Shown here piece after piece: positions 1-63,727 of a stretch of DNA of 64,000 nt. Position numbers and translations under genes: made by a program. Source of the stretch: Membranipora membranacea (lineage: Eukaryota > Bryozoa > Gymnolaemata > Cheilostomatida > Membraniporidae). Location of the stretch: positions 20,556,283 to 20,620,282 of the forward strand of contig OU612066.1 in the NCBI GenBank assembly GCA_914767715.1, in the 5' to 3' direction. The stretch's first letter is position 1. Every line of letters begins with the position of its first letter. The notes below the pieces were generated by a model. That model saw only the letters and a list, made by a program, of their open reading frames with translations. It did no database searches and was not told the origin of the DNA.

Positions 1-723
1 ATTATGTTCACCTCCCATACACAACGCTCAGCACCCAGATCTACCCTCCACCAGGCTGGCTCACTATGAGATGTTCTGAAGGACGTGTCAGGATCGCCAT
101 CTATACCAAGACAGGCTTCTGTATCTGTTGTATCCTGGCTACTCATCGAAGCCTCTCCAACTATATAAATATTAGATAATGTATCAATCACAAAAGCGGT
201 GATGTCTGTGACACTGATAATTTTAGTACCATATTTTCTCTGTTCAAATGAAAACCGAATCAAATAAATAAACATTCTATTAATCTTGTTTTGAAGATAA
301 CTTTTTAACAGTTTTTTGGTCAATGTATTAATGTGATAGACCACAGTTGAATTGTCTCCTCGGTAAACGAGGGAAGATAACTATCTGGCATTAGCTTTAA
401 ACCGTGCTTTGTCTTTTCAAATGATATTTGAATAAAACATTGGCTTGCCTAGCAATAGTTGTCTCTAGTGAAGCTCATGTACAGCCGCATATACCAAGGA
501 CTGATTTCTTTTCTGGGACGCCCAAACTGCAGCTCATTGACCAAATGTGACCCACTATAAAATTATATTTTTTTAGTCCAAATAATAACTCCTGAATGCA
601 ATATTTAGAAATAAATAAGACTTTTTTTTCAGGGGACCTCCTAGCAGCCATATATAATCTCAAAGGCAAACTAAATTTTGCCTACTAAAATTTTCTAAAC
701 ACTTTGCTTATTTCGACTAATAA

Positions 724-19913: not shown

Positions 19914-21731
19914 TTAAAATCCAAAAATTTGCACCTCAGCCAAATGGAAGCTGGCACTGTGACCTGTGTTGTGCACCTGCGCATAGCGTCCGCTTAGAGG
20001 CTGGTCGCACACAATGAGATTATCCTCGGAAACTTGTCCATCGATCTGTCCACACAAGGTATTCACGCTCATATCATCAATCGAGGTAGATTCAACAGAT
20101 GTGACTGTTATTACCAAGTCTTTCGGGCTGGCGGAACCAGTTATCACTACATAAAAATTGAAATGGACTTTGTCAAGTTGTTTTTCTTGCCGGAAGAATA
20201 AAATAAGATCTACTGTAGCGCAAGGCAAGTAATTTGGTAAGGTGACTTTCAGATATTACTTTATCCAGAACGGTAAGCATAAAGATTAAACCTTGAAATG
20301 GCAGGCCAAGTCCATGTCTTAAAAACTTGACTCACCTGACGAATTGCTGATGATTATGTTCACCTCCCATACACAACGCTCAGCACCCAGATCTACCCTC
20401 CACCAGGCTGGCTCACCATTAGATGTTCTGAAGGACGTGTCAGGATCGCCATCTATACCAAGACAGGCTTCTGTATCTGTTGTATCCTGGCTACTCATCG
20501 AAGCCTCTCCAACTATATAAATATTAGATAATGTATCAATCACAAAAGCGGTGATGTCTGTGAGACTGATAATTTTACCACCATATTTTCTCTGTTCAAA
20601 TGAAAACCGAATCAAATAAACAAATATTCTAATAATCTTGTTTTGAAGATAAGTTTTTTAACAGTTTTTTGGTCAATGTATTAATGTGATAGACCACAGT
20701 TGATTTGTCTCCTCGGTAAACGAGGGCAGATAACTATCTGTTATTAGCTTTAAACCGTGCTTTGTCTTTTCAAATGATATTTGAATAAAACATTGGCTTG
20801 CCTAGCAAATGTGACCCACTATCAAATTATATTTTTTAGTCCAAATAATATTTCCTGAATGCAATATTTAGAAATAAATTAGACTTTCTTTTTCAGGGGA
20901 CCTCCTAGCAGCCATATATAATCTCAAAGGCAAACTTCATATTGCCCACTAAAACTGTCTAAATTGTAAATTTGGCCCGTGTTAGATAAAGTTTGTGCAC
21001 CCCTGCTATATAAGAACACTTTGCTTATTTGGACTAATACTCTAGTCGAAATGCTAAGGCTCAAGGCTAAGGCTCCTGCGATTTAGTGGCATTAAATTAT
21101 CAACCACACTCATTTCCATTACATTATCATACAATCATTCTGGAAATGAGTGGTTGATAATTTTATGCCACCAACTCACATTGGAGCCATCTGAGCATTA
21201 GACTAGACTAATACGTAGCAATACATATTACTGACCTAAAGCCAAGTTCTCAGCGCTTGATCTCACAAAGTTGAACTCTTTGCTGCTCGTTATCCCCTCA
21301 GATGCTTTTCTTGCACAAGTTGAGTAAAGATAACACATTTTAGTGTTAGTTATGTAACTGAAGCCTGCACAGTCGCCATTAGAAAAGCAGGAGACTCCAC
21401 ACTCTAGTCCTGATCGATATGGTCCTGAAGCTTTCTCTGGTGTTGACACTGAGTCTATTTTACTTGCCCGTATGAATTTGGGTGGAGAAGTCAAGTATGA
21501 TACGTTATCTAAAATAGAGAGACAAACAAAGTTACAGTACTACAAATGCATAAAAAAGCATATATGTCTACCTGCTTGGCACACTGTTGTGCTGTGTTGT
21601 GCCATGGACAGGAAGCTTACTCATTAGAGAGCTCCAGTATTCTAATGTTGAAGTTCAGTAACTTTGATTCACTGCATTATGATGCGTTGATTATGATGTC
21701 ACTATAGATTAAAAAAATATATACACATATG

Positions 21732-21771
<40 letters not shown>

Positions 21772-23646
21772 CACTTTATTATTGCCGATCAAAGTCAATG
21801 ACAAATAAGACCATGCATAAACAAATAAATAAAAACAAAACAGTCACGTGTATTTATGGAGAATATCGCTGTCTATAAATGATGTGACATCATATTGATG
21901 TGAGTGAGAGTTACCTTCACTTATGGAAGGCACCCTTTCCACCAACAATTAATTCATGCCAAGTAGAGCTTTGAATTTATTTCCATGCAAATCTGACATA
22001 TCTTTATCATAAGTAACTGCCCTTATCCTTGACACGAAGCTACAAAAAAAGTAGCCGCGTGACAAGGCTAATCTGCCTGACTATGACATGCAGGCGTGAC
22101 GTAAAGGCGGGGGGCAACTCTGAACGCAGGAAAGTGGGTCAAACTTGATCTAGTCTTTGTGTAGTATTTGAATTAATATCCTCTGTATAATGAAATAGCA
22201 TGTGATAATTACCTCTCTGAATGAGGTTGTAAATTGAGTTGAGGTAATGCCCTCCGCAGATCTGGGCACCATCGCCGTGACAACCCATGTTACAATAATG
22301 ATCTTCTATCTGACCGCGAGAACCATAGCTATTCCCACAGTAACAGTAAACTCCGTTCTGTGTCCCAGCATATGTATATCCTTGCAAATTAGATGGTATG
22401 TCAGATATGTGAGAAAGTCGACAGCATGGAGTTGTGTGATATTATTTTATCAGATGAGTGTTTCAAATGTTTATTTGAACTAGATTGAAGACACCGTATA
22501 AATTGATTCAATATTAGAAAAGGTAGAATGCTATATTTTATATACTAGTGCAATTACTAATTTAGAGGACCACAGCAATACATAGTCGGGCAGCTAGTTC
22601 TGCAGCAGTTACGCAATATTTTCACACTTTAAAAATTCAGAGCACTTGCACTGTACCAGCCAAACAAACAATCACTTCTATCTGCTTGGGAGAGCTGTAT
22701 AAATTAATAAATGGAGTTATCCACTATTGTAAAATGTCTCCCGACAATGGAACTATATTTATTTTAAATTTATTTAAAAGAATAGTAATCAAAAGTATTT
22801 TGACTTGGTAGCACATATAGCTGCCAGACTATATATTGCTGTCGTCCTTTTGAATACTTTAAAGTATGAAAACTTTGAGATGAAACTTGTATTTATTGTA
22901 ACCTTTGGCCATACCTTGATCAGTACAAGTTTGGACACATAATTCGTTTGTAAGAGTTGATCCGATGTGATTAATGGATCCAGTTAAATCCCTGGGCTCT
23001 CCATCATTGAAACATCCTAGATACTCAAGATCACCGCCGCATAACGCCCACACTAAAAAGCAAAAAAGTTACAGCTATAGACGAGCTGGATATCAAAGGA
23101 GCGCGAATGCGGAGCCTTAGTTACATCAATCATCATGGACTTCTAAAAGAAATTTACAGTGAGACCAAAAATGTATTTTAGCATACTTTTATCATTCTCA
23201 TTGAAATTGATATATCAATACAAAATTGATATATCTGATTACACGCTATATATTTGAGGGACATTATACTTAAATTTGACATGATTCTAGCATATCGTCT
23301 ACATCCGTAGAAAAATGATTTAGTCTTTGCAGAACCTTAATACTATCTGACACACTCTCTCTACGTCAACCAATTATTCTATATACTGTTTCGGCACTTC
23401 AATTTCCATTGAATCGCAGTTCAAATTGATATTTCACCCAGCGGGGGGGGGTGGGGGCATCAAAGTTAAGAGACACATGTACATTGTAGTTTAAGGGCTC
23501 TGCTCTAGTTGATGTCGTTTCGCTTCCACCACATCCCCATTCCCACCATGAGGAAAATCTTGAAAATTCTGAATAAACTGAGGCTCACCATGTGCTATTC
23601 TCAGAGTTATGTACCACAAATGACTCCACCAACTTTTGTAGTCCAT
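19914..23646 (-). CDS. Secreted WSC-PAN/Apple-discoidin (F5/8C) protein, copy 3
   Basis: Six exons on minus: 23646-23589, 23052-22915, 22380-22213, 21508-21236, 20512-20336 and 20146-19914. All junctions are phase 1, giving 348 residues. Exons 1, 2, 3 and 5 have exactly the lengths of copy 2 (58, 138, 168, 177 nt). A signal peptide (hydrophobic WWSHLWYITLRIAHVWA) precedes WSC (LTNELCVQTC, YCYCGNSYGSRGQ, AQICGGH). Then come PAN/Apple (GLECGVSCFSNGDCAGFSY, CYLYSTCAR) and a discoidin/fucolectin-like domain (WWRVDLGAERC, HLAEVQIFGF). All expected Cys are present and no lesion is seen. It lies inside the block duplicated from 1-4640, but unlike copy 1 it stays open. A secreted glycan-binding role is inferred from the domains. 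Confidence 0.88.
21041..21206. mobile_element. hAT-like MITE, family A copy 3
   Basis: The element is 166 bp with the same inverted ends as 724-870 and 8635-9060. It is flanked by identical ACTAATAC at 21033-21040 and 21207-21214. It occupies the intron between the PAN and discoidin exons of copy 3, orthologous to the insertion in copy 1. Confidence 0.75.
21717..21776. repeat. TA dinucleotide microsatellite
   Basis: About 60 bp of mostly alternating TA with a few CA steps, in an intron of WSC copy 3. It is absent from the matching intron of copy 1. Confidence 0.85.
22025..22071. repeat. Short hairpin element, also at 41919-41965
   Basis: About 47 bp running from ATCCTTGACACG to CGTGACAAGGCTA, with an internal GCTAC/GTAGC pair. 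An inverted relative is at 41919-41965. Short similar flanks (CTGCC) are seen on both sides here. It is absent from the otherwise duplicated block at 1-2844. Confidence 0.5.
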
Positions 23647-41529: not shown

Positions 41530-44500
41530 TTATCTGTCCGATTTTTGCTGACTTCTCACATTTTCGTAAGCGTTGAATCCGGCCTGCTGATATTGGCGTG
41601 TCACTGACAACACGTCACTTGCCTTTGTAATTCCTCGTCCAACAATAATTATGTCAGCACCACGTAACGTCACGGCATCCTCTGGAGTTATGTACTGCTG
41701 TCCTAAACCATCCGTCTTATCACCCAGTCTCACTCCTAACAATATATAAGAACTGAATTGAACAGTTTTGCGATGCTTTGCGCCTAAGAATGGAAATAGT
41801 GAGGGAATAGAGAATAGTAAGGTCAATCAGACATTGATATGCGGCTATGCTGCAAAAATGTTACAATGCATTCTTAGAAAATTCGAATTTCTTCACAGTT
41901 TTTCATAGACACAAAACATAGCCTTGTCACGCGTCTACTTTTTGTAGTAGCCTCTTGACAAGGATACACGCAACGGTTGATATTGATATTAGGGTTCTAC
42001 CAAAACAATACAATGTAATCATGATATTAGACAGTAAAATGTCCTGGATACCTCATCAAGTTGGACAGTCTCAGTACCATATTTTTCATCGGTTAAGGGG
42101 CAGGAGGGGAAAGGGGGTTTGGGATTGAGGAAATGCTTTGATTTCAACTTCTGATGAACCCTTTTTTATAAAAACAAACATTTTTACTGTGATTCATGTA
42201 AACCAGAAAGCCAAACGTACATGAATGCATAATAAATTGAAAGACTTTTCAGATTTGGAACTTCAATCGGAAATGTGGCTAACATTTACACAAACATTAC
42301 ACATCATTGGATATAAGCCGCTGGGCATGTTGACATGTTGACATGTCGATATCACTACTTCCTCATCATCATTTATTTATCACATGACTTGCATTGTGTG
42401 CTTTTCAGATAAACCCCATGTGTTTTTTCGATAAAGAATCTTAAAAGCAAACAGCATCAACATGAAAGACAGAGTACGTTCGGTGCATTATTGCGTGACC
42501 TACAAGCTATGCGGCATGGTTACAAGTCAAACCATGGTATCTCTTTGTACTATGTACCCTGAAAGCAACCCCCACACACTCGCGCATCCTCTATTGACCG
42601 TTAATTATCACCAACTGTATAGCCTGAGCTCCAAGACATTTGCTCCCCCCTTCCCGCGGCCCTTAAATGTATGGGAACACTAAGTTAATGCAATCTGAAT
42701 CAGTAACATAGCTCGGAGGTCTTAGTATCGCTGCTATCGCTATCGCCATGGCTTCTCCGAGGAAGAACAACAATACTCTCTTGACCACCAGCTGATAACA
42801 TTATGTGGCAACAGATAAGTTATAGGGGACAGGCCGGCTGTGGCACTGTACACCATATTTGTGACATGTGCTTTGCACAGCAAGCAGACAAGGTACCTAT
42901 TAGAGGCAAGGCGAGATGAAGGCATACCGATTAATGTTGGTGGCTCTTTAGCTAACATCGTCTACCATGCAATGCCAACGCTTTTCATGTAAGGGCAGAA
43001 GTTGGCATCAAAACAATCCATGGTAATAATTACATCGGCACATCAGTGAACGAGTTAACAATAATATTCTGACATGGATACTTGCACAATAATAAAGCTA
43101 CATCGACATAGCCAACAAGTACACAGTGTGCATGATTGGCCAATGTTGGGAGGAAAGAAGAACTTGGGGAAATTATTTGTCCCTCGGCTAATACTTGACT
43201 ACGTGACATGACGGAAGTGGCCTACTGTGTCTAAAATCTGCATGTTTGTGTTCAGCGTCAGCGCGTAAAGTCAAACAAGTCAGGCAGCTGAGTTGGAGAC
43301 AGTTTTGTGGCTGATATTGGATACATTGTCTTTTTTTTAAATCAATATCATCTAGTTTACAATCCAAAATCCTGTAATCCTTCTCCCTAAAGTAACTAGG
43401 ATAGAAAATACTAGCAACGGCTTAGTTAGCTAGATTGGAGCTGACGACTTAATATTAGCTAGCACCAATTCTCTAAATTAAATTATATTAAATTAAAATT
43501 AAAAGTCAGAATTTATCTCAAGTAATGAGTTTGGCTAATCATTAGCCAGCCAAAAATTTCACTTTGTCAAGACTGGTTTTTGTTTGTTCAGTAAGGATGG
43601 CAGTGACTTTATTTAGTATCTTTGAGGACAGCACATCATGTTGTTATTCCATCATATTTCACTTCATGCTTTGTGTCAATTGTTCAAAGATCTAATACCA
43701 TTGCTATTTGTCTTATACAAAATCAGAGTTGAATAAATATAAAATTTGAAAAGGTCACTAAGACTTATATTGACAATTCTTTTGTGTCTTGGTTTTTTTG
43801 TCTACATGGATTGGACACTTAGTGTAAAAATGATGCACTGATTTGTTGAATGATGGGTGTTAAATTTTTAATAGAAACAAACTGATGAAGATTGAATTGA
43901 TTGAATCACTTTGGCACATTTAGAATTCCTGGTGGCAAAATTAATTTGAGCAGTGAACCATCAAGCCCCAGCAGGTTTGCTGATGTGAAGAAGGGCACTA
44001 AATTGAGTTATGTGCAAACTTTTATGCTGTTATGCGGGTGGGTACAGTGTATCGTAACAGGACAAGTGGATTCGACTTACGCAACAGAGAGCAAATTGGC
44101 GCAGATATTGCGGCCTCGCCAATAAGGCAATAATACTTCGCCGCCCATGCCTCGGGATGGGCGAGTGATAAGACATCGGATTTTAATCAACCTTTTTTTA
44201 AATTTTAATCAAGGTTTTCACGCAGATAGAGAGTATATTCGAATTGCAATCTTGTGTTACATGTTTATGCCACCCCCTGTCATGAAAAATATGACGTTAT
44301 TAGATACGTCACGTTGTCACAGAACTGATGCTTGCTAACCCCATATCTATTACAGTGTATAAAGAAAACCTGAGAGTTCGGTAATTCAAGTTGTTGAAAA
44401 TTTAACATAAATACTGGTTCCATTAGAACGCAGCGTCACCATTGCTTTACTGAACATATAGTCAAGGTCCCAAGACAAATCTAGTCTGAGCCCCCCAGAC

Positions 44501-47500
44501 TCTAGCCCATCCCCCCCCCTTCCGACAGGCCCACCTAAGTGATCTATATGATTAGAACACTTACCTGGAGTCATGTGTATAAGTGCCGGGTCAGATGTGA
44601 GCTTAGATTGAGATATAAACCCGATAACGAAATCACCGTGCTCTTTAGCCATATTCACCGTCGCTACGATATACCAAACAAGATATGAAACGATAAGAGA
44701 AAGCATGTACATGAATAAATTTAGGAGATTTTCAGTACATCAACAACCTTGGATCCTCAGAAATATCTGGTCAACTGCATATAAAATTTTGTCAGTGACA
44801 AGATCTTACTGGTTATTCAAGAAAATTGCATTGTGGGATACCCATCTACAATATCCCCTTTAGAAATGGTATAATCTTAGTCGTAAGTCTTATTTTCGGT
44901 TTGATTGAGCATTTGTTGCCAAAGCCAACAGTCTCAACCTATGCGATGACTGATAACTGCAAGCAACTACAAAAATGGAGTAAATAGGAGTTCCGTTTAT
45001 GGACGCCTGGTCAAATTGGCCAAGTTAGAAATCATAATCTTGATCATGACCGAAAGCAGACAGTGTAGGGAAGTTGTAGGTGGCAAGATACATAGTGTGG
45101 TTCAGCATACATTTTGGGGATTTAAGTATCATGTGGACATACCAAAAGAGTAACTTGCATTGGCTAGATTTCCCTTTGAGCTCATCTCTGCGAGTAGAAC
45201 ACAGGCTCTGCCCTTTGGTGCTCCCACCTAAAACATAATGACCAGATATCTAATTATGATGGCCTAGCTTGAGTGACTACACTATTTATGCGGAGAAGAT
45301 AAGGGAATAGTCCAAGTCACAACAGGCCACATTCTACCAGCCCAGGTACCCAGGCTACAAATGACCAGCCCACAAACAACAAAACAGACCCAAATGTCAA
45401 GACCTTTAGAATTAACTATATTATAGGATTATGTTTTACGGTACAAAATGGCTACAAAGTTCAACCACAGTGATACATATAAGTCCAAAACATATATACA
45501 CATAACAGATGAAAGCTACATATGGGAATTCATAAAGTTGTGAGATTTCTTCTCAAAACAAAATTAAAGGACTACAAGTTGAATGATAAGCACAACTTTA
45601 CTTTCACAATGACCACAAATACCTGCATGATTTCTGCACTATTTTACCTGTTTCAGAGCGTCGACGATGCCGGGACCAGGTAATGAGTGGGCGTTAGTGA
45701 AGTCAGCCCAGTCAGCTATCTTATATATACCTCCAGAATACTGCTTCTGTACTGTGCTGCCGATGTCAGCAAACTTCCTACAAAAATACCAAAAAGAAAA
45801 ATGCATACAGGTTCAACAAAAATCCTGCGACGAGAGCAGTAAGACGGACATGGAGCAGACTACAGTCACAAATGCCATAAACATATAAATAAAGTATTAA
45901 TACGTTTATGACTTTTGCACAAGGAATTAATTATACTAATCATGAGTTTTCATTGCAGTTTCTATCAGGATCTTAGTAAATGAGGGTAAGATAGACAAAT
46001 ATTTGCTGGTATGCTGTTGTACAAGGACATAAGAGCAAAGAGTATTAAAGTGTCTAGGAAAGCAAAACACAACCACTGTTCATATCAAAGCTTTGCCATT
46101 GCAATGAACAAAAATAGTAAAATTTTTTGCACAAGAACATTATTGAATTATGTAACCTAATTTAAAGTGCGAAAATCCAGGGTCTAGAAGGGTCTACAGC
46201 AGCTGTGGGCAACCTGCGGCCTTTTTTGCCAGTGCGGCCTAATTGTGGCCTTATGTCTATGAAAATCACACATTCAAGTTTTAACTGTCATGTGGATGTC
46301 CAAGTATGCATGACCCTGTACAAGCTCAATTCATTGTTGGGATACCAAAATATTGGCATTCTGTATCAACCATGCGCTAAGTTACTTACATGTAGAAAAA
46401 AAGGAAATTCCCAAGCCATTCTACACAAAAGCATCATGAATGTACTGGTGCCAACTACTTTTTCACGCGCTTCCATTTGAATAAATACCCCAAACAGTGA
46501 AGAAACTGTCGTAATATTGTGAGAGAAAAGCAATTTTCTCAATTCTTTCACCTTTGGATAATTAACTACAAACTGTTTTTTGCAAAGCTGTCATTTTGAG
46601 CAAGAATGGAAAAGTTGTTCTATCAAAAATTTGACATTGTTACAAGTGCGCCAGCAGTTTGCCTGAAATGTTCCAGATTGAATCTCATTGACAAGTATGC
46701 CAATATTTACTGCACTTCTTGAGCGCTCATCCTGCCCTTTGCCCTACTGCTCGAAACACTGGGAAACAGCCACGTACACAACCATTTCCCAGACACAAAA
46801 ATTCAGTAGATAAACAAGATAAAGCTAAACTGATGCAGTTGAAAAATCTGATGCTTATTGCGACATAACAATAACATTTTTATCGACACATAATTCTGCT
46901 TTAGTTTGTATAAAATGCACAGTGCGAAATTAAACTTCCGTTACAAGTTTGTGGCGGAAAAATATGTTGTGGCCTTTTGTGTTGATTCTGCATAAAATGA
47001 GGCCTTCTTCAAAAAAAGGTTGCCCACCCATGGTCTACAGTATGTTATCTCCCCTGTCACGGATTTGCATTTATAATATAAATGCAAATCCGTGACAGGG
47101 GAGATAACATACTGTAGACCACCTACTGATGATCCACCTACAGTATAACATTAAGCCTAGCCTGGGCTTGCCTAGGACAGTTACAAGGCTGCTCTTCTTA
47201 CACTAGAAATGATCAAAATAACAGTATTGGACAATGGTAGCGTATCAAAGATATTTTAGTGTTAACCCGTGACAGGGGAGATAACATACTGCAGACCCTT
47301 CTAGACCCTGGATTTTCGCACATTAAATTAGGTTACGTCATTCAATTATGTTCTTGTGCGAAAAAAATTTACTTTTTTTGCACATTGCAATGGCAAAGCT
47401 TTGATATGAACAGTGGTTGTTTTTTGTTTTCCTAGACACTTCTCGATTAGTTCTTATTTACAGCTGCTGTACCAGTAGAGTCTGGGGGGGAGGGGGGCTC

Positions 47501-50500
47501 AGACCTTCTTTAGGGTAGCGTCATTCGTGTTGACCTAAGGTTTAGCAGGTTTGCTTACAGTTCAGATTTGTGTGAAGATTAAGATGAGCAACAATATAAC
47601 TGGATTAAATTCTGTTTGAGATCAGATCAAATTACCGAGAACAGCCAGTTTGATAACTGGCTGAGTATATGTGGGAGATGAAGTTACAACCGATGAAGTG
47701 ACGACGTCAATCAATCTGTGCGTGATTCTGATGGAGCAAGATTTACTGGACAGAGTGAACCGTTACAGTGAGGCAACCATAACCTGGTTTGCTAGGTTTG
47801 ATCTCTTGTAAATTTAGAAGAAAGGATGAACATGAAAACTGGAATAGTATTACCAAAAGATCATTAGCTTTTACCGTAAGGGTTAGGGCCAAAACTGTAA
47901 TACAGTTTTTGCATGATTTTTGTGAAAATTTGTTTGTTTTATTGAAACTATCCCCGGGTTAGATATTCTAGGTGAAGCGGGTCGTGTAGTGACCTCGTGC
48001 CCACAGTATGGATGACCGCAAACGCACTTGCCAGCCATTGAGTCAGTACAACTTAAAAGTTTACAGAAACTACAACCCAGTATGATGCCTGAATATCATA
48101 TTGAGCTAATGACAGCCCCTGTCATTAATTATCTCATAATTGCACCAGATTGGATTGTTTTACTACAGTGCTTTGAAAAGGCGTAGCTGTATGCCTACTA
48201 GTTCCAACTTACTATAATATGCTTCCACAACTATAAACATTACAATTAGGATTGGACAGTCCAAGTGCATCCCAAAATACTTTCTGGCCATTGTTTAATT
48301 AACACATTTGAGAACGTTATGTCAAAGAGATCTAGGGGGCCTTTCAGTTAGAATGAGCAATGAGCCTTTAACCCTTCGCTAAAAAATCTCGCTCATATGC
48401 TTTTCAATCAGGCAAATTTGTTCATAGATCGTTTACACAGAATTAAGTTTAGGGAACAGACCTCTAGCTAGCTTACATGCTCAAACGTTGCAGAGATGCT
48501 GGCATTTTATTATGATAGATATTGGATGAAATTTAGGCGTAAGACTGTAAGACCGCCTGCCAAACTTATACCAGTGTAATGAGAGACTATATTTAACATT
48601 CATAGTCTCTGGTGTAATTACATGATATCACAGAGTAAGGATATATCCTCTGTGATGATATGCTATTAGCTGCTTTGTTTGTTGTGAAATCATTCTAAAA
48701 TGTTAGTTATTTATATTGTGTTCCAATGAAATTTCAAGATCCCTTTGACAGGGAAGTGATATTGGCAGAATTCCAGACCACAGCGCTGACACGAAAGGTC
48801 AATTGATTAAAAGGCTCATCTGATCCAAAATCTGAAATTTATAAATAAACATCAATCCACAAGTTTAGAAACCACACACCCTGATGATTATACAAAAATG
48901 ATTGGTCAATTTACGATAGCTAGCTAGCTGCTGCTACACAAAAGTAGGAAGTATAATTGTGACACATTTTTATTGTCTATGACGACTCCCAGTAGTCTGA
49001 GCCCCCAGACTTTGCCCTCCGCCAGACTTTGCCCTCCGCCAGACGGCCCTCTGCCAGACGGCCCTCCGGCGACTCCCAGTTTTGTTCCCCAAGTGGCAGA
49101 TTGATCATTCAAGGACACACATAATGAAATGATAATAATATTAGCTCTGTGAGTTGAGGGGCAGGCATCATAAGTTTTATGATGCCTGCCCCTCTGCTGA
49201 AGAACTGATATATTTTTGTCTGATACTAGCCTGCAATATTCTAGGTAGCTGGGTCGTTGTTTTTATTGGCCACTACCACCAACAAAGACCCGGACCCAAG
49301 TTTTACGCATTTTGGGATTGTTATAGAGGATCGAGGGGCAGTATAATTTTTAAATAAGTAAAAATATAAATAAATTAGCTGACCACTGACAACCTGCTGG
49401 AGTCGTACCTGTCTTCAAAGATGACAAAGTCATGTTTGGTAGATAACTGCACTAGTTGCTGGATTCCTTCTGATGTAAAATCGTCGAGGATATCCACATG
49501 TGTCTTCAGTATACAGATGTGAGGACCGACTTCATCTGCAAGCTACAAAAAAAAAGAAAACCCGAGTTTCTTCAGAGTCCATACTGACACTTTTGGTCAC
49601 GGTAAGGGTGGTTTAAATTGCTGCAGATTGTCTGTATCAGAGTTACAATTTTGAGGGTGCCCTTTGTACAAAACAGCAGGTAGAACTAAGAGGCGGATTT
49701 CTCTAGCACATATTTCTAGTAAAATAGTCCCGCTCACAGCCCAAATAATATTTAAAGCTTGGGGTAGGGGGTGGGACAACCAGTATATGGAGTACTTCGT
49801 TGACCTCAAAAACATGTAAAAGGCTGTCATACACTGTATTATATTGTCAATAAATGTAATGAAGTTTGCTCCGCCATAGCGGTACGCTGACATTTTGACT
49901 TTGAACAAGCAACTTCAATTGGCTAATAAAACACATATGACAAGAGATGAGCTGGTATGCAAATAGAGTTGATTCAGCACATCACCTCCCACACTTGTCA
50001 GATTGAGGAGATAGGAGTCATTGATGACTGTCTACCCTTATAATACTTCAGCCCTCTTTTAATATGACGATAATACAAGCCATGGCCGTAGATCTCTATA
50101 TTGAATCAAACTTGTACTTGTAAAGTCAACGCTTAGCTATCAGCAATATGTACATCCGTTGCTTCATTTGCATTGCACTATTTACCAAGCTATGCTGAAC
50201 TTATCTCTGTATAATATATAGTGTACTAATACTCTCACATAGTTTACATACATTGCATAAAATTTTCATGTATTACACAATTATAGCAATGACAATTTAT
50301 AATCTTTGATTATAGGGCAGCTTATTTACTATGTTATCTCCTAGTTGTAGTAATACCTCATTTCCATCTCTATTGCTTAGTATTTTGTTATTATCTTTTC
50401 AGCTTATACACAAACGCAGAACATATCACCTGAGTTCATTCATACAAGGCAAGTAATTGACCTCAAATAAAGAGCAACATGATACAATCAACAAAAGATT

Positions 50501-53500
50501 TAGTAACCCGCAGCGCAGTGGGAATTAAAAATCATTGTAAGAGTTGAAAGAGTTCAGCATTTATTTAAATCAAAGATTGATTCTTACACATGTTTGAGTT
50601 TTGTAACCTGATTGTTGAGACCAATGAACTCCCTCTAAGAGGGAGTTCATTGTTGAGACCAACGAGTAATCCTCACTGAGACATTTCTCTGAGGACAAGT
50701 ATTTTCACTATAAGTATAGTAACTACAGATAGTGCATTTTCCCTCCCTCCATAGCGGTCAGTATAATTGCACATAGAAAAACATCACCATCGGAAACCAA
50801 GTTATATATTGTATGTGTATTAATAACACGGCAAAAGTGAAGTACAAACTGGAAACAAATATTTCTCGCGTCCCCCTGCCATCCCTCATACAATTATCAA
50901 GCAGAAGATCAAAGAACTTGCAAGCAGCTCCTGTGAAAAACATGGGTCAAGTCTAAAAACAATACCAACAACAAGACATATCACTTTTACTACAAAGAAG
51001 GCCACATTTTTCCCGTGTTGCCAATACAATCAAACAAATCGATCGTGTGAAACCGCGACTAGCCATCCTACCCTTAATTCCATGCTAGATCAGATGACAA
51101 TGTCTATGTTGTATTATATTGTCCGAATAAGTCAAAGATTAGAAAGAACCCCCAGGATAGAAACTAGCTAAACTTTTTGGATCGGCCTGACTGTATAAAA
51201 CTGTTTAGCAGACCTAGATCTGATCACAGAGTAAGGATATCCTTACTCTGTGATCTGATGCCAAATCAGATTTACTGGTTGACTCCCATGAAAATGATGG
51301 GTGACATGTGATGTCTGAATTGTGTCAGCTAGCAAGCGGAATTTTCTACCGCCATGTTTGATTGCTTTAGTTTAGCAACTACAGCTATGATTCACAGCCA
51401 TTTCCGTTTCTAAACAGTTACATACTGAGCGGCAGTGCTGTTCAATATACAAATACCAATTATCACTTCATTTGGCTATTATTGACTGTTTATTATTTGG
51501 CTATATACGCTGGATCTATCTTTGCTGCTTTGAATAGCGATTATTGATAGTGAGCAAAAATGTGAATGATGTCAGTAAAATGTGCCTGGATGTTTGCTGC
51601 TAAATCTTGGTAATTGCTTCCAAAAACATTTTGTTTTCTCTTTTTGTGTCAATGAGGAAGGGAAGTATTACACTTAATAGATGGTAATTGTTGTTCCCCG
51701 GCACAGCAATATGGGGGTTCAAAATATCCTGTACCCATTGACCTCATAACAGAAAACAATTATAACCTTATGAACATCATTTGCGGAGGGGCCCAAACTT
51801 CCTGATTTGCGTTGAACTGAAATTCACCTCCCATGACAAAAGAGCGCACAACTCTTCCAGAACATGAATATTTATCACAAATTGACATTACATAAACCAA
51901 GGCTCTTCCAGACATACTAAACATGCATACATGTTGAGACAGAGATTACTCAATACCCTGTAACCAAATCGAATGGCGATCCTATGCCACAGCAAGTTCA
52001 CAGGAACAGCTTCTAAATGAATTCACAAATGTATTAAAAATTTACCTGTTTATCTTACATTCCTGTGGATTATTTATAAATCATTATTATATAATGTATT
52101 ATGGATTAATTATATATGTATTTTGGAAAACAACTTGACGTATCTGGTCTCATCATTTGGCCTTGGAATTTCACTTAGTTTCACATTTTCTTCTATCATA
52201 TAACACATTTCACATTGTCTTATCCATCCCACAGATATTTTGTGATTGAAATACAAATTACTCTATCTCCGCTGAGTTTGGCGTATCACTGCAAACCTAA
52301 ATTTGCTTCTATTTATCTACAGTTAATTCACCGGTTCAGAGCCAGGTTGCTAATCACATTTTGTGAATATTTTAATCAAACACATTTTTTGTTGACAGTT
52401 TTAATTGCAACTAATTATGACATCATTTGCCTCTGAATTCGAGATCTAGTCAACCTATTATGGTAGTAGCTGTTAATAGCCAAATAAAGTAGAATGCAAA
52501 ATATAACAGCTTACCTTGATAAGCTCAGACATAGTGGTCACATCAGCAGACACACATAGATTGGTGCTCTTCTTACTCATAATACTGAATATTCTTTTAG
52601 ACACTGGGTTCTTGCAAAGTTTACTTCTGTCGGCGAATGGTAGCAGCTGAAAATAACAGGTGAAAGTTGGTTATTTTTGGTAATTGCAATAATTCCAGTC
52701 TTTAAAATTGATCTCATGATTAATTAATACCAGAAGAGCGTCTGAGCAATTGAGAGGGAGCAGCTCCAAATTAATACACATTATGCAAATTATCACGTCA
52801 AGAACTGTTTCATACTTAGGAACATAGATTAGGGTGGACATATTTTAAGGAATCAGGGGACACAAGTAGGTTAAAAGGGCAACCAGGTTTTTGGCTTTGT
52901 TGAGCTATTACTGATTGATTAACTCATCTTGAACGTCATGTCACTTATGTTCATTTTCAAGTTCATTTGCACTGTCACTTTATGTTCAATTTTTATATGT
53001 GTTTCAAATTATCAACACGGAATACCCATCTAGCTGATGGTACATAGTACATACCTCATTGATTTTGCTGGTTCTCTGATCGATGTCAGTTTTAGCGGTC
53101 AGGGGTATACTGGCGGGATTAGTCCTGAGGAATTCCATCACCTCTTTAGCAATCTCAGAATTTATCCTCTTATGTTCGACTAGTATATCCAAAGCTTTAG
53201 ATACTCGAACCAAACTGTGATCAACATGATTGTAACAAGTTAGACTGATAACTCAGATCTAGACAATTGCAGTGGGTATGGTATGAAATAATAACATCTG
53301 ATGGTAAGATGGGGTAAAAGTCCTTTCTTCGGTTCCGCACACATATTTTATGCTCTTGATTGAGACAGAATGCCCGAACATTGATCTAGATGTAAAATTG
53401 CTAAAATATTTGTGCCTGTTCTGAGCACATTGTGGGTGACTGAACGGGCGTGAGTGAGCTGACTGGCGTGAGAGCTTTTTCAGATTTATTAACATAAAAA

Positions 53501-56500
53501 TTCAAATTTACTTGTATCAGCAAATAAATAGATCTTGACAATTCATTTCATTTTATAGTCAAAACAAACAAAAGATAACTCACCAGTGAAGCTTGATTCC
53601 GAGTTTCTCAAGATTTTTGGCGCCATGCTGTTCTCTGTCCAGTACAAGTAAAGCATCAACAGCTTCTACACCTTGTGACTTCAGGCTCTGTGAGAGAATT
53701 AACAAAATATACAATGTTACAAGCATACAGCAGCAGTGTCGAAATCACAGGGCGGGGGAGGGGGGACAGTCAAACATTGCCAGGGGCCCACATTCTGGAG
53801 TAGACCTGTGGTCGAAATACTGTGTTCTATTTAAATGCTAATAAGTGGCTTTTTAAGATGTCTTCCCTCTATATGACATATTTTGTACCGATCTAGAGGA
53901 TTGCATACGAAAGTATAATTCCGATGCTAGTCAGCAATATCAAGGTTCGTGTATTTCATATGCAGTTAAGTGTAATTGAAAAACAGAGCCATTGTGCCAT
54001 ATCTAGCTAGATCTTTTTGAATCCGTAACCCGACTAAAAAACGCACACCGAGCAAAATGACAGAAGCAGCATCACACGAAAATCAACCTCTCACAAATAG
54101 TTTAAAACAAAGAGTCCATTGGAAAACCAAAGAGATCATTGGGCAGAGCAGCAAGCGAAAACAGCACACATCACCTGGAAATGGTCATCAGATTATTAAG
54201 GGATCTATGAAAAAAATTATCCACTATTTATCAATGAATGTAGGAGTTACTTCTAGACCTATTGTCCTGAGTATTCGATTGGAAGACTTTCAGCAGTCAG
54301 CATTGGTACTGAGTAGTTATATTAGCGTCCATATTCAACTTTATACTAGCTGCGTATATGTAAAGGCTGATATTCACAACAACATGGTCTATGATGCCCC
54401 AGAGTAGGAGAGAATTCATAATTCTCCTTTTCAGACTTGAAACAGTGAAATTTATGACTAGCTTACATTTACTCAACATCGCCACTTCATATAAACCCTA
54501 GATCAAGATGGATCCAGTTTGCCTCCATTCCAGTTGCTCCCCTTCCACTGGTCACACTGCAGCATCACCAGTGGAGGGGGAGCAACTCCAAACACAGGCA
54601 AATGGTCAAAACTTAGTCTATATAAACATCCACCTTTGCTAACAAAGATTGGCACTCGGCAATATCAAACCACTCCAAGACTAGCTATACTCACTATGGC
54701 TAATATTGACATACTTGGGAAACAGGTATCCCCAACCTCCAACAGGTAGTTTTTTCTGTCACTAAATCATTCATAGGCTATGAAGCTTCACAACATCCTT
54801 TTGGGTTGTAAAACTCAAATGGTTAGAGAAAAGGATTAAAATTCCCTTCATGTTTTTGTTTGTTTGTGATTACTTTATTTTGTCGATCAAGATACAATTG
54901 AATGTATATATTAGATCTGACAGTAAATAAAATACTATAAAAAGTTCACATGGTTTGAGAATGAATATTGCACTAACCTGGCACGCTTCATAGATACCCT
55001 GTCCGCTGACCATGACGTCCTCAACTACCAGGCATTTCTGCCCCTCCTTGTACACGCCCTCAATCAATTTTCCTGTGCCATGAGCTTTCACTACTTTCCG
55101 CAATAAAACGTTATTCAATTGCTGATCCTTTGCTATGCACTAAAAACACATCATAATATAACCAATATCAATCACACAGAAAATCCTTTACAATGTTGCA
55201 CTGCAATATTAGTAACCAGTAATAAACAGGTTGTATATTTCATGAACTGAAGAACACAGAACAATAAAAGGCCCTTTTAGGGGTTTATGAAATATCAACA
55301 GCGTGTATCATAATGTTTGAAAATTTTCATGTAAAAATACTTTCTCCATTGATAGACGGCTGATCAAAGCGACATATTGGGTGAGATACCTTTTGCCTGC
55401 TAACTTCCAAATAATCTGCTGCCAAAATCTTGTTGAAAGCACAGCGACTGGGTATGTCAGCAAAACATACTCACATGAGAATCTGGATGTATGGCCCAGT
55501 CTTCTCACAATAAAACATGGCCATCATCAGGCACTGAATATGAGAATGAGAATAACACCAGAGTTTATACTTACCGTAGCAAGATGAAGAGCAGCGTATG
55601 GCACTCCACAGAGGATGTCAAACTCTACGGCATCTTCTACAAGCTTATACATCTGCTTACATATATCTCCCTGAGTAAGAAAGAGAAATAATACAAATAC
55701 ACATCAAATGAGCAAATGATTTTTTGATGAAAGGTGTGGTACTTCAAAGAGCAGCTTCACACAATCTTCTTTTGAGGTAGATGTCAATGATGAAGGGTAT
55801 TCTGTATAGCTTATCTTATTTATTGCAGCAGTAGGGGCTTATCTTTGCAACACTGAAATTTTTTCTAATTTTTCAATAAATTTCTCTGAGTTTTTATCCA
55901 ATAAACACAGCAATTGGATAAAAAATTATTTGAGAAGCTTCATCACCTACCATAAGATTAGGATGTGAGATGACCAGGCGCAAATCAACATAGATGGGAG
56001 TTATCATTCCGTTAGATAGCTTGAAGCTTCCGAATCTGAATGAGCCAATGTCATGAAGCCTGAGCACAATGTCTTCTATAGGGTCGATTATCGAATCGTT
56101 ACCGACTTGATTCGAAGCTATAAACTTCTTGACTTCAGTACAGGTGGTTTCTGTTATGATGTTCTGAGCTACCAGGGTTTCCACTACTGTCTCTGCACTT
56201 ATGACACTGTAAGCGAAGGGTTTATATGTACATTTCTATATTTCATTGGGGCACTGGATCATAAATATAGCAAAAAAAGCAAGGCAAAAACACCAATCAT
56301 TTTTACATTATGATTATCATAACATACATATTAGACAGTATACTGGGGAATAAACCAAAGAACATCACAATATTAAGAATAAAATGGACCAACAGCGGTA
56401 AAAGACAATCATCTCTTGGTTGGACATCTATCACATTCCTATTATAGATCATCGTCCTTGGACTTGGCAGTGGAGAACAGTATTTTAGTAATTGTCTTTT

Positions 56501-59500
56501 CTTGGAACAAATAAACAACTGTGTAGACAACTCCAAAGTGTTAAAACTTCTTTAGCTGTATATCCTTGAGTAGTAAATATTATTAGCTAGTTTAGTTTAG
56601 CTAGTATGGGGGTGACTCAATATTAGGAAGCACCATTTATTTTCTCTGAGTAGCATATACTCAGTTATGCCGGGATTTTTTTTTAATATGGATGTGGCCG
56701 GAGTGGGATCAGACCTAAATTTCTGGCTACCTCAGAACACAAACCTGTGGAGCTTGATTCCATTTTTCTCCAGATTTGCTCTGCCGCCTTGATTCCTGTC
56801 CAATAGCGCGATGACATCAGTAACAACAAGACCTTCTGTTTTTAGGCACTGTAAAAGACAAGCAGCATTATAAGCGAGGTGATACAGGTAGGAGAAATGT
56901 AGCTCCACTGGCTGCAGGAGGAGATGAAATTACCAGAACAACATATTCTAAATTCATATGTTTCACTTCCTTTACAATCACTCATTAGTTTAGTTAACAT
57001 TATTAGTAGAAAATAATCAGAAAGCTTACAATTTCTTGTAAAAAACGGTAATGATTGAAACTTGAGCGGAAAATGGCTAAGGCCACACGCTCGTGCAAAT
57101 TTCCACTAATTCTTGCAAATTAAATTCCGTACGAATATCAGCCTGCCACACATGATTGTCATTTCCCAAATTCGTAATAATGATTTGTGAGTGTAATCCT
57201 ACTGTAATCCTCCTCAACCAATCTAAACCATAGGCCTACAGTGATAAATAAAAATTTGAACCAAGGAGAAGCGGTTACTTCTTGTCTATTATACCAACCA
57301 GTCCAGTGATTCAGCTTCTGGATATGCTTAGGCTCAACTATCTCCTCATATTTACACAACATGATACCCCATTAGTCATTGTAACCCTTCTCCCTCTTGC
57401 TCCAGGTCCAAATCAATGAGAAACTCCACATATTGATCATCCATTCCATCGTTTAACAGACAGACAGCCAATCAAACAAATCTGACAGCCAGTCAGAAAT
57501 CATTACGTGAAAATTTATATGATTCGGATTCGTGCATCGTTAACGTTAATCGTGGGAATCCCTATTTGTACGAATGTTTTCGTGAAAATTTACACGAATC
57601 GTGAGAAAACAACCCCCGTGTGGCCTGAGCTTAAGAATCTTGCATGTGCCCCTAGTTGATGTAAGCCCCCCCCCCTCCCCTAATACTTTACGATTTTTGA
57701 ATCATGCACATATTGGTTGAAGTTGCAAATAACTGAGTCAAGGCTCATAACTTCTGAATGTCCTTCAGTAGCTCAACAACTCTCATAACTAGGTTTGGAT
57801 AAAGGTGAGCTGGCAACAACATGTCACCTGTCAGTTTTCTAACTGGGATAGACACATAAATTGATGTTTCGCAATGTATGCGGTTGTCTGGTTGTCTTCG
57901 TCAAAAAACGATAAGTACAACCTCAGTTATTGTGCAAAAAATGACTGATGGGAAAATAATCAGAATACCATGATATTTGCTTGGTTCAATCTAAGCCGGT
58001 AATAATATTTGACAATTATACTGGCCCATGCACAGGTGAATTATACACTTTCTCATGAACAATGAACGACAGCTAGGCATCTTTCAATAAATTCAGTAAA
58101 CAAGGAATGTTGCCAAGTATGATTTACCTGGGAGTAGTGAGTAGAAAAACTTGTAATAAATGAAGGGGACTGACGAAATGATACATGTAGACCCGCCTTA
58201 TATCAGAATCATGTTTTCCTTTTTTGTAGGATATAAATTGTGTAGATTGTATAGATTGCTGATAGAGGATATGTCTTTAAATTGGTTTTAAGTGTGTGGT
58301 GACTTAAAAGTGTGTGGTAAGTTGTAAATGTGAAACAAAAATTTGTCTGGTGAGGTTATCAGGTCGTAACGGACAAAGTGTCGAGCCATTGATACAACAA
58401 AAAGAAACAAAACAAAAGCCCTTGAAGCTGTGATATCTTACCGCAGCTACTTCTAGTACGCTTCCTCCACTGGTAACCACATCTTCGATAATAACACATC
58501 TATCTCCATTCTTATAAGAGCCTTCCAGTATTTTCTTAGTTCCATAGTCTTTGGTCTCCTTACGCTTCAGCAACATCGGTATGGTGTGGGTTGTTGATAC
58601 ACACTGTTAAAATATACAGTTTTTGATAGTTTTTTTTAATCCGTACTAAAAATTATATCAGCATTCTCCTAAGCTTTGGTTCAAGTCAAAAGACTGGGCT
58701 ACATCTAATCATCATGTCTGTTGGTGTCTCTAGCGTTGAGAGGACTCATGGAAACCTAACAATATGCCACATATAATTTGTGCGTGCATGCGGCATGCAA
58801 ATCAAAGATAGCCGTTTGGCAGAACTCAATTGAGGATGTACTTACGCTCGCAATTGGGAGAGCTGTATACGGAACGCCACAGATATTGTCATACTCCAGT
58901 CCTTTAAGCTTGTCATAGACTTGATTAGCAACATCCACCTGATAATCAGAGAATACATACAGACATCAATTTATTGCATAGCTAGCCTACATACATACAA
59001 GGGTGACAATGTTAACTAGTGGTTGGAAGTTGACATGCATTCAATTTAAACTATAGCAAAGTTTGTGCTGTAATAAAAGCGGAAGAACCAGTCTGTAGTG
59101 TTTTAGTTAATAAATTAGGTAGGTGAGATTTGGAGTAGACTTTTACCAGGGAGTTACAGAGACATCATACAGAGTTTTCAAACTCCTTGCTTTTACTCCT
59201 TGATTGCACAATCTGTCATTGCTCTACAAGTTCTAGTGTTGTTGTTATTAAAGAACTTCAGGAAGTCTAGTGTTGCATCCAAATATTCAGAATTTTCAGG
59301 ATTTATTTATTACTAAATTAAGTGAATAATAAGATAAGAAAGAAGAAAAAAAACTCACCAAAAGTTTTGGATGTGAAATAATCACTCTCAAATCAAAGTA
59401 TATAGGGGATTTTATACCAGTTTTCAGTATGAAAGTTCCAAATTTCACTCCTCCAATACTGTGAAGTTGAAGAATAAGGTCATTTGAATCTCCAGTGGCC

Positions 59501-59502
59501 AT
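41530..59502 (-). CDS. UMPS: UMP synthase with duplicated OPRT domain (OPRT-OPRT-ODC)
   Basis: Fifteen coding exons on minus: 59502-59359, 58938-58846, 58603-58442, 56848-56745, 56206-55951, 55670-55575, 55139-54978, 53687-53584, 53214-53055, 52646-52515, 49542-49409, 45777-45648, 45227-45143, 44663-44565, 41735-41530. They join in one frame to 688 residues; animal UMPS is about 480. OPRT makes OMP from orotate and PRPP, and ODC decarboxylates it to UMP, in the cytosol. Residues 1-168 are OPRT1, 169-205 a linker, 206-374 OPRT2, 375-427 a linker, 428-688 ODC. ODC catalytic residues K484, D488, D515, K517 and D520 are present, and a phosphate-binding R654 lies in VGRGI. The first ATG with a good context (A at -3, G at +4) was chosen. 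An open stretch upstream preceded by TTGCAG might add residues. Introns carry many small insertions. Confidence 0.92.
41919..41965. repeat. Short hairpin element, inverted relative of 22025-22071
   Basis: It runs from TAGCCTTGTCACGCG to TGACAAGGAT, with CTAC/GTAG pairing inside. The outer 8-bp arms CCTTGTCA and TGACAAGG make it a hairpin. It lies in the UMPS region on the 5' side of the last coding exon. Confidence 0.5.
44482..44540. repeat. GTCTGG hairpin micro-element relic (reverse orientation)
   Basis: TAGTCTGAGCCCCCCAGACT is the reversed terminal hairpin of the family at 33959 and 40082, followed by a C-rich tract and TCCGACAGGC. No target duplication can be seen. It lies 25 bp past a UMPS exon end, inside the intron. 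Confidence 0.55.
46200..47032. mobile_element. hAT-like non-autonomous element with 8-bp TSD
   Basis: The left end CAGCTGTGGGCAACCT matches the right end reversed, CATGGGTGGGCAACCT (13/16), in the style of hAT termini. Identical GTCTACAG at 46192-46199 and 47033-47040 are the target duplication. The 833-bp interior has no intact transposase. A truncated relative is at 39807-40540. Confidence 0.85.
47032..47120. repeat. Perfect 43-bp-arm palindrome
   Basis: Arms 47032-47074 and 47078-47120 are exact inverted copies separated by three bases. The outer ends read GGTCTACAGTATG and CATACTGTAGACC. The palindrome must have formed within the foldback; its left end is the right-hand target duplication of the hAT-like element. 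Confidence 0.9.
47478..47513. repeat. GTCTGG hairpin micro-element relic
   Basis: AGAGTCTGGGGGGG and GGGGGGCTCAGACC resemble the terminal hairpin of the 33959/40082 family. No target duplication is visible. Confidence 0.4.
48621..48661. mobile_element. Palindromic micro-insert, 25 bp, 8-bp TSD (locus 1)
   Basis: CACAGAGTAAGGATATATCC plus TCTGT (48629-48653) is flanked by CATGATAT and GATGATAT (7/8). Compared with the copies at 51225 and 62591, the right arm has lost four bases. Confidence 0.65.
48984..49080. mobile_element. GTCTGG hairpin micro-element with 10-bp TSD (locus 3)
   Basis: A 77-bp insert in reverse orientation (48994-49070) lies between identical GACTCCCAGT copies. It starts AGTCTGAGCCCCCAGACT and contains four tandem 14-bp units like GCCCTCCGCCAGAC, so it is longer than its relatives. 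It lies in a UMPS intron. Confidence 0.75.
49156..49194. repeat. Perfect 18-bp-arm hairpin
   Basis: Arms GAGGGGCAGGCATCATAA (49156-49173) and its exact complement (49177-49194) are separated by three bases. No direct repeat flanks it. It lies in a UMPS intron. Confidence 0.85.
50611..50660. mobile_element. 31-bp palindrome between 12-bp direct repeats
   Basis: ATTGTTGAGACC is repeated exactly at 50611-50622 and 50649-50660. Between and overlapping them is a palindrome with 15-bp perfect arms (CAATGAACTCCCTCT at 50622-50636) around a single central base. This is the structure expected of a small insertion with target duplication, but no second copy is seen in the window. Confidence 0.65.
51217..51259. 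mobile_element. Palindromic micro-insert, 27 bp, perfect 8-bp TSD (locus 2)
   Basis: A 27-bp insert (51225-51251), CACAGAGTAAGGATAT then CCTTACTCTGT, lies between identical GATCTGAT copies. The palindrome is perfect and extends into the target bases. Confidence 0.75.
53584..56206 (-). other. UMPS: Second OPRT domain of UMPS (OPRT2), diverged
   Basis: Encoded by exons 5-8. Exon 5 begins with the linker after OPRT1 ([17 protein letters not shown]) and runs without a break into the start of OPRT2, so the two domains are one protein, not two genes. The fold motifs remain ([25 protein letters not shown]). Against OPRT1, K27 is S232, E95 is V301, D98 is A304, T123 is V329 and S127 is G333, while K300, K303, H305 and G306 are kept. 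Those are PRPP-contacting or catalytic-loop positions in OPRT, so reduced or lost activity is inferred. Confidence 0.88.
54532..54587. repeat. 21-bp-arm hairpin
   Basis: Arms AGTTGCTCCCCTTCCACTGG(T) and its complement (54567-54587) have one mismatch and a 14-base loop. It lies in the UMPS intron between the seventh and eighth coding exons. Confidence 0.75.
56745..59502 (-). other. UMPS: First OPRT domain of UMPS (OPRT1), intact
   Basis: Encoded by exons 1-4, residues 1-168. All hallmark motifs are present: [16 protein letters not shown] (K27), [12 protein letters not shown], the catalytic loop [11 protein letters not shown] (R93, K94, K97, D98), and the PRPP-binding [11 protein letters not shown] (E119-S127). 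It closely resembles the single OPRT of other animal UMPS proteins. This is the domain expected to supply OPRT activity. Confidence 0.92.
57079..57627. mobile_element. Candidate MITE in UMPS intron
   Basis: AGGCCACACG near the left end (57080-57089) and its complement near the right (57617-57626) suggest terminal inverted repeats, with further imperfect pairing (GTGCAAATTTCCAC against GTGTAAATTTTCACG). No target duplication could be aligned, so this is tentative. Confidence 0.35.
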
Positions 59503-62920: not shown

Positions 62921-63444
62921 TCATTGGGAGCTGCTAGCTGAAATAGCGACTGATGCGCCTGGCTTTTCGGTTACAGCTGCAATAGTCAGACCAGCGCTTG
63001 GTTTCTCCAACTCCATCCTCTCGGTGACAGCTTCAATAGTAAGGGCAGCGATTGGTTCTTTCGACTCTATCTCCGCCTTCTTTGACTCAATCTCCGCCTT
63101 CTTTGACTCTATCTCCGCCTTCGTTGACTCTATCTCCGCCTTTGACTCCTCCTTCGACTCTATCTCTTCACACATTGCGGTGTAGCTCAGCGTTATGTTG
63201 TCTAGATCAAGGTTACCGTTTGTGGATTCTGTTGTAACATCGAATAGAATTCTGATATACATCTCGCCATCTTCTGACAGTTGGTTGACCTCGCTGGTAG
63301 CGATCTTCATTTGCTGTTCTATCCAGGTTGATGTCTTTTCTGGGTGTCTCACATACCATTGAGTGTTCCTGTCAAAGTTGCGAATATGGCACATATTATT
63401 GTTTTGATGTATTGAGTTACTTAGACAGAGTTTGAACCATTTGC
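62921..63444 (-). CDS. Terminal exon: MAM-like segment plus heptad repeats
   Basis: Exon on minus with acceptor AAATGCAG before 63444 (phase 1), open for 173 residues to TGA. The first part ends in a pattern like the end of a MAM domain (GEMYIRILFDVTT then GNLDLDNITLSY), following a WYVRHPEK and W-containing segment. Next come four near-exact seven-residue repeats of KAEIES(T/K), then two copies of an L/ALTI(E/A)AVTE unit. MAM domains are extracellular adhesion modules; the charged repeat is helix-prone. The upstream exons lie beyond the window or were not found. It is antisense to, and downstream of, the PIWI-like exons, possibly nested in that gene. Confidence 0.55.
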
Positions 63445-63727
63445 CTGCATTTGGAAGGGAGCAACAGGAATGCAAGCAATTGGATTAAACTTGATCTAGG
63501 AGTTACTCGACTGTTAGTGTTTTCAAAGATCAAAGTATTTGACTGTCACATTGAAAGATCCTGCACTATAAAGCTAGGACATTCATTACTTTCAAGCTAG
63601 AATTATATTTATTTGACTCTTGGTAGAGTGGAAATGAACATACAATTATACCCAGATAGCCCAAACCAGTATCATCACATTTGAGTGCTCAGCATATTAT
63701 ATAATCACACAGATTGATTGTAAGCCT

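Follow-up and report, generated by a model that had tools for sequence, protein, structure and literature searches.

The role of UMP synthase (UMPS), which makes uridine monophosphate (UMP), one of the units from which RNA and DNA are built, is that of an essential housekeeping enzyme, and its ordinary animal form has two domains, an orotate phosphoribosyltransferase (OPRT) and an orotidine 5'-monophosphate decarboxylase (ODC). The gene described here comes from a 64,000-nucleotide stretch of contig OU612066.1 of the bryozoan Membranipora membranacea (the window), and it carries a second OPRT between the two. Fifteen exons on the minus strand, from 59502 to 41530, splice into a single frame of 2067 nt that codes for 688 amino acids (aa) and a stop codon, in the order OPRT1-OPRT2-ODC. 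All 14 introns begin with GT and end with AG in the splice assembly, and the window is without any N. The original prediction, made from the DNA letters, had proposed these fifteen exons in one frame, with exon 5 at 56206-55951, and a protein of 688 residues, about 200 more than the usual animal UMPS (about 480 aa); all of this was reproduced.

In the 688-aa protein, Pfam PF00156 matches two stretches and PF00215 one, and each OPRT taken alone passes the PF00156 cut-off of 26.3 bits (OPRT1 31.4, OPRT2 29.4). Both also exceed the cut-off of the NCBIfam pyrE model TIGR00336 (106.8 bits), with 144.2 bits for OPRT1 and 119.1 for OPRT2, and the ODC reaches 186.1 bits with TIGR01740 (cut-off 92.3). 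The stricter NF010382 (cut-off 208) is narrowly passed by OPRT1 at 211.1 bits; OPRT2, at 171.4, falls under it. The segments KTHVDIL and FEDRKFADIG, which we take to be catalytic segments of ODC, are both present. With an OPRT N-terminal to an ODC and with conserved active-site columns in OPRT1, the gene is the UMP synthase of a cheilostome bryozoan, and having two OPRT blocks rather than two domains only, it is a variant. From these sequences, OPRT1 and ODC look catalytically intact, and the second domain is probably not a working OPRT. An exon-wise profile search of the whole assembly (339,339,785 bases, 18 contigs) placed PF00215, among its best candidates, at three places, every one an exon of the UMPS gene; there is probably a single UMPS gene in the genome.

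The exons, all on the minus strand, were delimited by the splice assembly, with column comparison added for exons 1, 3, 5, 6, and 7 and block comparison for exons 5 and 8. Exon 1 (59359-59502) carries the ATG and the hood, or N-terminal part, of OPRT1 (aa 1-48), including Lys27, the equivalent of Lys26 in Escherichia coli. Exon 2 (58846-58938; aa 49-79) holds the segment GVPYTALP, exon 3 (58442-58603; aa 80-133) the mobile loop with R93, K94, K97, and Y99 and the phosphoribosyl pyrophosphate (PRPP) loop EDVVTSGGS, and exon 4 (56745-56848; aa 134-168), which ends in phase 2, the segment DRNQGG. Exon 5 (55951-56206) is chimeric: the C-terminal helices of OPRT1 and a linker, resembling the start of exon 9, are joined to the start of OPRT2, resembling exon 1, with Ser232 in place of Lys. 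Exon 6 (55575-55670; aa 254-285) matches exon 2, with His282 replacing Pro, and exon 7 (54978-55139; aa 286-339) matches exon 3, keeping R299, K300, K303, and H305 of the loop, with Val301 replacing Glu and a PRPP loop that reads EDVMVSGQG (Val329, Gly333). Exon 8 (53584-53687; aa 340-374) matches exon 4 in length (104 nt) and phase. The C-terminal helices of OPRT2 and the linker into ODC lie on exon 9 (53055-53214). The ODC starts with exon 10 (52515-52646; aa 428-471) and continues through exon 11 (49409-49542), which holds KTHVDIL and the beginning of FEDRKFADIG, exon 12 (45648-45777), which holds the remainder of the latter, exon 13 (45143-45227), and exon 14 (44565-44663); exon 15 (41530-41735) supplies its C-terminal part and the stop codon.

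The architecture is common to bryozoans and not private to the Membranipora genome, judging by the proteins retrieved. The protein database searches gave the best 120 of 1208, 221, and 1531 hits, from 7992, 4089, and 7995 scored candidates, and the distribution described here is that of these best matches. The closest named proteins to the window UMPS are bryozoan (best 120 of 1208). Watersipora subatra has a full OPRT-OPRT-ODC protein of 691 aa (P0001), with 70% identity over 99% of the query. P0004, a 709-aa reading frame with the same order, lies on a contig of 2866 bp, too short for introns like those of the window gene, so it is presumably transcript-like. Bugula neritina is represented by two partial models, P0002 (572 aa, beginning within OPRT1) and P0009 (387 aa, beginning within OPRT2), and a fifth OPRT2 comes from P0137, a 121-aa fragment. 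Among the matches listed, two OPRTs precede one ODC in P0001, P0002, and P0004, and the OPRT2 signature is also seen in the fragments P0009 and P0137; a scan of 240 fetched proteins for this signature returned those five. A profile search with OPRT1-OPRT2 gave no further tandem protein among the best 120 of 1531 hits. UMPS of ordinary length (470-494 aa) stand in the same lists for Lingula, Lineus, Tubulanus, Owenia, Capitella, and molluscs. The order of two PF00156 domains and one PF00215, which the original prediction had proposed looking for in related genomes, is thus complete in Watersipora subatra and P0004 and partial in Bugula neritina. Its author knew of no described animal UMPS of this kind. 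None is described in the titles and abstract starts listed by searches of the open-access literature, with most subscription journals outside that scope, and a search there for the architecture by name gave no paper.

The origin of the second domain can be read from the exon map. Aligned over 193 residues, the OPRT blocks agree at 80 (41%), and their introns coincide in position and phase in four cases out of four (48/253, 79/285, 133/339, and 168/374). Exon 5 combines the opening half of an exon 9 (OPRT end, linker) with an exon 1 (OPRT start). Exactly such an exon, and a doubled OPRT domain, would result from a single internal tandem duplication that began where exon 1 begins and stopped within exon 9, in the middle of the OPRT-ODC linker.

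Other accounts of the doubled block were considered. Given the 41% identity and the four shared intron positions and phases, the blocks are explained neither by one locus assembled twice, which the same order in relatives also makes very unlikely, nor by a chance reading frame, which is ruled out. Two neighbouring genes, which the original prediction had also dismissed, are ruled out by the single frame, the matching introns, the 691-aa Watersipora orthologue, and the 709-aa frame of P0004. Recent gene conversion between the blocks is not supported, as third codon positions agree at 35% and fourfold sites at 10 of 32. An artefact of assembly or annotation in general is hardly credible, given the divergence of the blocks, the GT-AG introns, the absence of N, and the repetition of the order in Watersipora and, partly, in Bugula.

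The OPRT tree had 51 rows, of which 42 were other OPRTs picked from the fetched proteins. The five OPRT2 rows, P0004 included, form one group (100/99), whose stem measures 1.01 changes per column. In the window, Bugula, and Watersipora, OPRT2 ends in branches of 0.08-0.11 and OPRT1 in branches of 0.25-0.41; the end branches of the other OPRT2 rows are 0.28 (P0137) and 0.70 (P0004). The OPRT1 of P0004 has an exceptionally long end branch, 1.23 in this tree and 1.98 in a reduced one, compared to 0.70 for its OPRT2. In approximately unbiased (AU) tests, a clade of OPRT1 and OPRT2 obtained p-AU 0.078 with all 51 rows and 0.366 once 11 long or odd rows were dropped, and a clade of the four OPRT1 obtained 0.229. 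The unconstrained ODC tree sets P0004 apart from the other tandem ODCs; forcing all tandem ODCs together scored better (p-AU 0.602). A single duplication is thus neither rejected nor shown by the trees, which do not settle how the OPRT1s, or the ODCs, of P0004 and the cheilostomes are related, and it is better supported by the exon structure.

The active site of OPRT2 was compared with a background of 308 other proteins (313 fetched less the five tandem ones), which are best hits rather than a random sample and include one OPRT of the Caranx protein P0003. In 48 columns at least 90% of the background share one residue; the window OPRT1 keeps 46 of these and OPRT2 keeps 38. Rare residues, found in less than 2% of the background, number one in OPRT1 and nine in OPRT2, and at least eight of them occur in just 1 of the 308 background rows. 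Lys27 has become Ser in all four OPRT2 sequences that cover the site (background Lys in 303 of 308), and in all five Pro76 has become His (Pro in 307), Thr123 Val (Thr in 291), and Ser127 of the PRPP loop Gly (Ser in all 308). Pro88 and Met89 are altered to various residues in all five, and Tyr72 is lost in two of them. In the window protein, the second domain is thus an OPRT by homology and fold that has V329, G333, and S232 where an OPRT has the Thr and Ser of the PRPP loop and the Lys of the hood. Its mobile-loop residues Arg, Lys, Lys, and Tyr/His are in place, with Gln at the second position in P0004, and all five OPRT2 retain Arg93, Lys97, Tyr/His99, Gly100, Thr101, Glu106, and Gly107 of the loop and the Glu-Asp of the PRPP motif. 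OPRT2 therefore appears to be without parts of its own site and yet to have retained most of a loop that could be lent, Glu95 being the exception.

The significance of the loop comes from bacterial enzymes. In E. coli OPRT, both PRPP and orotate are touched by K26, whereas the loop residue K103 works in the adjacent subunit (PMC10087573). In the Mycobacterium tuberculosis enzyme, pyrophosphate is bound by Arg94 from the neighbour's loop, and Lys95 is grouped with its own pocket (PMC5430920); that Lys95 acts in cis is our reading. The R-K-x-x-K spacing fits R93-K94-x-x-K97, the equivalence of residues being based on spacing and alignments. Since in known OPRTs each active site is covered by the mobile loop of the partner subunit, loop donation inside the chain would be the likeliest role of OPRT2.

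Between cheilostomes, the second OPRT is the most conserved part of the protein. The window and Watersipora share 69.2% of residues in OPRT1, 83.1% in OPRT2, and 71.5% in ODC; for Bugula the values are 76.7% (over 86 residues of a partial model), 87.0%, and 69.2%. These were set against 14,878 pairs from 173 other UMPS of 455-530 aa, with other lengths and P0003 left out, pairs that share sequences and so are not independent. In 385 pairs whose ODC identity is within 2 points of 71.5%, OPRT identity has a median of 70.5% and a maximum of 81.8%, compared to 83.0% for the window-Watersipora OPRT2; the OPRT1 in this alignment, at 70.7%, is ordinary. The window-Bugula OPRT2 (86.9%) likewise exceeds the maximum of 77.7% among 456 pairs of like ODC identity. 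The OPRT1 of the window and P0004 is low at 50.0%, with 98% of 3548 pairs equal or higher. OPRT2 was thus heavily remodelled early and afterwards saw little change between cheilostomes, which argues against a decaying relic.

The explanation that we favor, and consider reasonably probable, is that OPRT2 is a fused, non-catalytic pseudo-OPRT that serves as the built-in partner of a working OPRT1. Since the duplication, OPRT2 has kept the OPRT fold and lost residues of its own PRPP and orotate site, and strong selection would hold it as the partner of OPRT1. It would pair with OPRT1 inside the chain, lend its loop (R299, K303, H/Y305), and fill the dimer face of OPRT1, and the occupied face may fix the assembly state of UMPS. 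A more specific version, put forward tentatively, is that of a covalent, asymmetric OPRT pair with a single origin no later than the separation of P0004 from the cheilostomes. OPRT1 would be the sole working site, the dead OPRT2 would lend it a loop, and decay would fall on residues that work for the dead site, in cis in OPRT2 and in the trans-acting loop in the OPRT1 of P0004.

The strongest hint of loop sharing comes from P0004. In its OPRT1 loop, R93, which is Arg in all 308 background rows, is replaced by His, G100 by Glu, and E106 by Asp, and K94 is kept; its OPRT2 loop has Gln for K94 and keeps R93. Three rare loop residues, the number in this OPRT1, are found in no background row (0 of 308). 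Such complementary losses are the pattern expected were the OPRT1 site alone working.

Several observations weigh against a loop-lending partner. No OPRT1 loop is damaged in the window, Watersipora, or Bugula, which leaves P0004 as the one sequence with the complementary pattern, and its enrichment in the loop depends on Y99H (Fisher test, 4 of 9 compared to 3 of 39 columns, p 0.017, with it; 3 of 9 compared to 3 of 39, p 0.071, without it). The loop that would be donated is itself not untouched, as Glu95 (295 of 308 in the background) is altered to various residues in all five OPRT2. Single changes are no proof of inactivity, since K26 is missing in some Gram-positive OPRTs (PMC10087573), with Ser or Ala at that site in two alignments, and Val stands at the Thr123 position in 6 of 308 background rows; OPRT2 also remains over the TIGR00336 cut-off. 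The contrast between OPRT1 and OPRT2 is smaller in Bugula, where visible, and the window-P0004 OPRT2 identity of 57.6% is ordinary (median 57.8%). An AlphaFold2 model of the Watersipora protein has confident domains (mean predicted local distance difference test score, pLDDT, 88.6) and a predicted template modeling score of 0.51, which leaves domain placement open and gives no confident OPRT1-OPRT2 pairing; a model from three alignment rows (pLDDT 46.3) was too low for use. Finally, human UMPS is reported to dimerize via ODC and to keep OPRT activity when OPRT dimerization is blocked (PMC9978035), so a donated loop may be needless.

One could also consider OPRT2 as a ligand sensor, whose remodelled pocket binds orotate, a nucleotide, or another metabolite and tunes OPRT1, or else the polymer state of the whole enzyme, with no loop lent. 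The long OPRT2 stem followed by slow change would suit this, as would the new residues shared in or near the pocket (S232, N233, H282, Q/E332, and G333) and a conservation above that of OPRT1 and ODC between cheilostomes, which fits a new and specific binding site; in human UMPS, too, the OPRT domain is described as the route by which substrate affects assembly (PMC9978035). Alone, however, a sensor leaves the retained loop residues of OPRT2 and the complementary loss in P0004 unexplained, and we regard it as unlikely.

It is less likely still that both OPRTs are active and that the duplication merely raised OPRT output relative to ODC. The TIGR00336 score of OPRT2, its retained PRPP-motif Glu-Asp and DRE Arg, and the Gram-positive OPRTs that dispense with Lys26 (PMC10087573) speak for activity, but Ser127 and Pro76, nearly or wholly invariant in the background, are altered in every OPRT2, and OPRT2 falls short of the NF010382 cut-off that OPRT1 passes. 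The gene might instead give two splice products. Exons 5-8 sum to 618 nt, so their skipping would join exon 4 to exon 9 and leave an ordinary in-frame UMPS of 482 aa, the usual size, with the long form made under some conditions. This neutrality of frame is, however, a consequence of the duplication itself, and both blocks are present in the 709-aa frame of P0004 and in the Watersipora protein; the Ensembl annotation of Watersipora is described as drawn mainly from transcript alignments (PMC12902671), which bears on the matter only if P0001 stems from that annotation. We give this account very little credence.

Elsewhere in the window, intron 11 of the gene holds a 1.4-kb element (46048-47441) with terminal inverted repeat arms at 46048-46199 and 47289-47441 that are 87-93% complementary, and nested in it is a perfect 45-nt palindrome (47031-47121); the element is likely an inserted DNA transposon or miniature inverted-repeat transposable element. 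Further exons lie at 3-380 (minus strand), 9243-10141 (plus), and 20322-22441 (minus). Matches to PAN (9243-9602) and WSC (22142-22441) exceed the Pfam threshold, which three others, F5/8-type-C-like, do not reach; these exons on both strands may belong to a small group of clustered genes for secreted, lectin-like proteins. An open frame at 62924-63484 (minus) repeats the short motif KAEIESK and has no Pfam match.

Compared to the bifunctional OPRT-ODC enzyme of animals and plants, the bryozoan form adds a second OPRT in between (688 compared to about 480 aa). The UMPS of Leishmania fuses the same two activities but has one OPRT (residues 257-450 of 3qw4, matched by sequence) in the inverted order, with the ODC presumably before it. 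More than one OPRT in a predicted protein is also seen in P0003 of Caranx melampygus (916 aa), but there the order, read by eye, is OPRT-ODC-OPRT-ODC and both PRPP loops are the ordinary TSGSS; it is probably two adjacent ordinary fish UMPS genes merged by annotation. The trypanosomatid prozymes of AdoMetDC and deoxyhypusine synthase offer an analogy, without kinship, in that the working enzyme forms a pair with a catalytically dead paralogue and gains activity from it (PMC3663545, PMC5201418), although these are separate gene products rather than one fused chain.

In this lineage, an essential enzyme has received a third, probably non-catalytic domain, which was then kept more strictly than the working domains between cheilostomes. 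It offers a natural test of whether OPRT pairing and the exchanged loop matter in a fused animal enzyme, where the human data suggest that perhaps they do not, and of how a dead copy becomes a partner. If true, the asymmetric pair would be a shared-site homodimer whose two halves have become fixed as separate parts of a single chain. The place of Bryozoa among animals is debated (PMC13326412), and the OPRT-OPRT-ODC architecture is a candidate shared derived character for the group.

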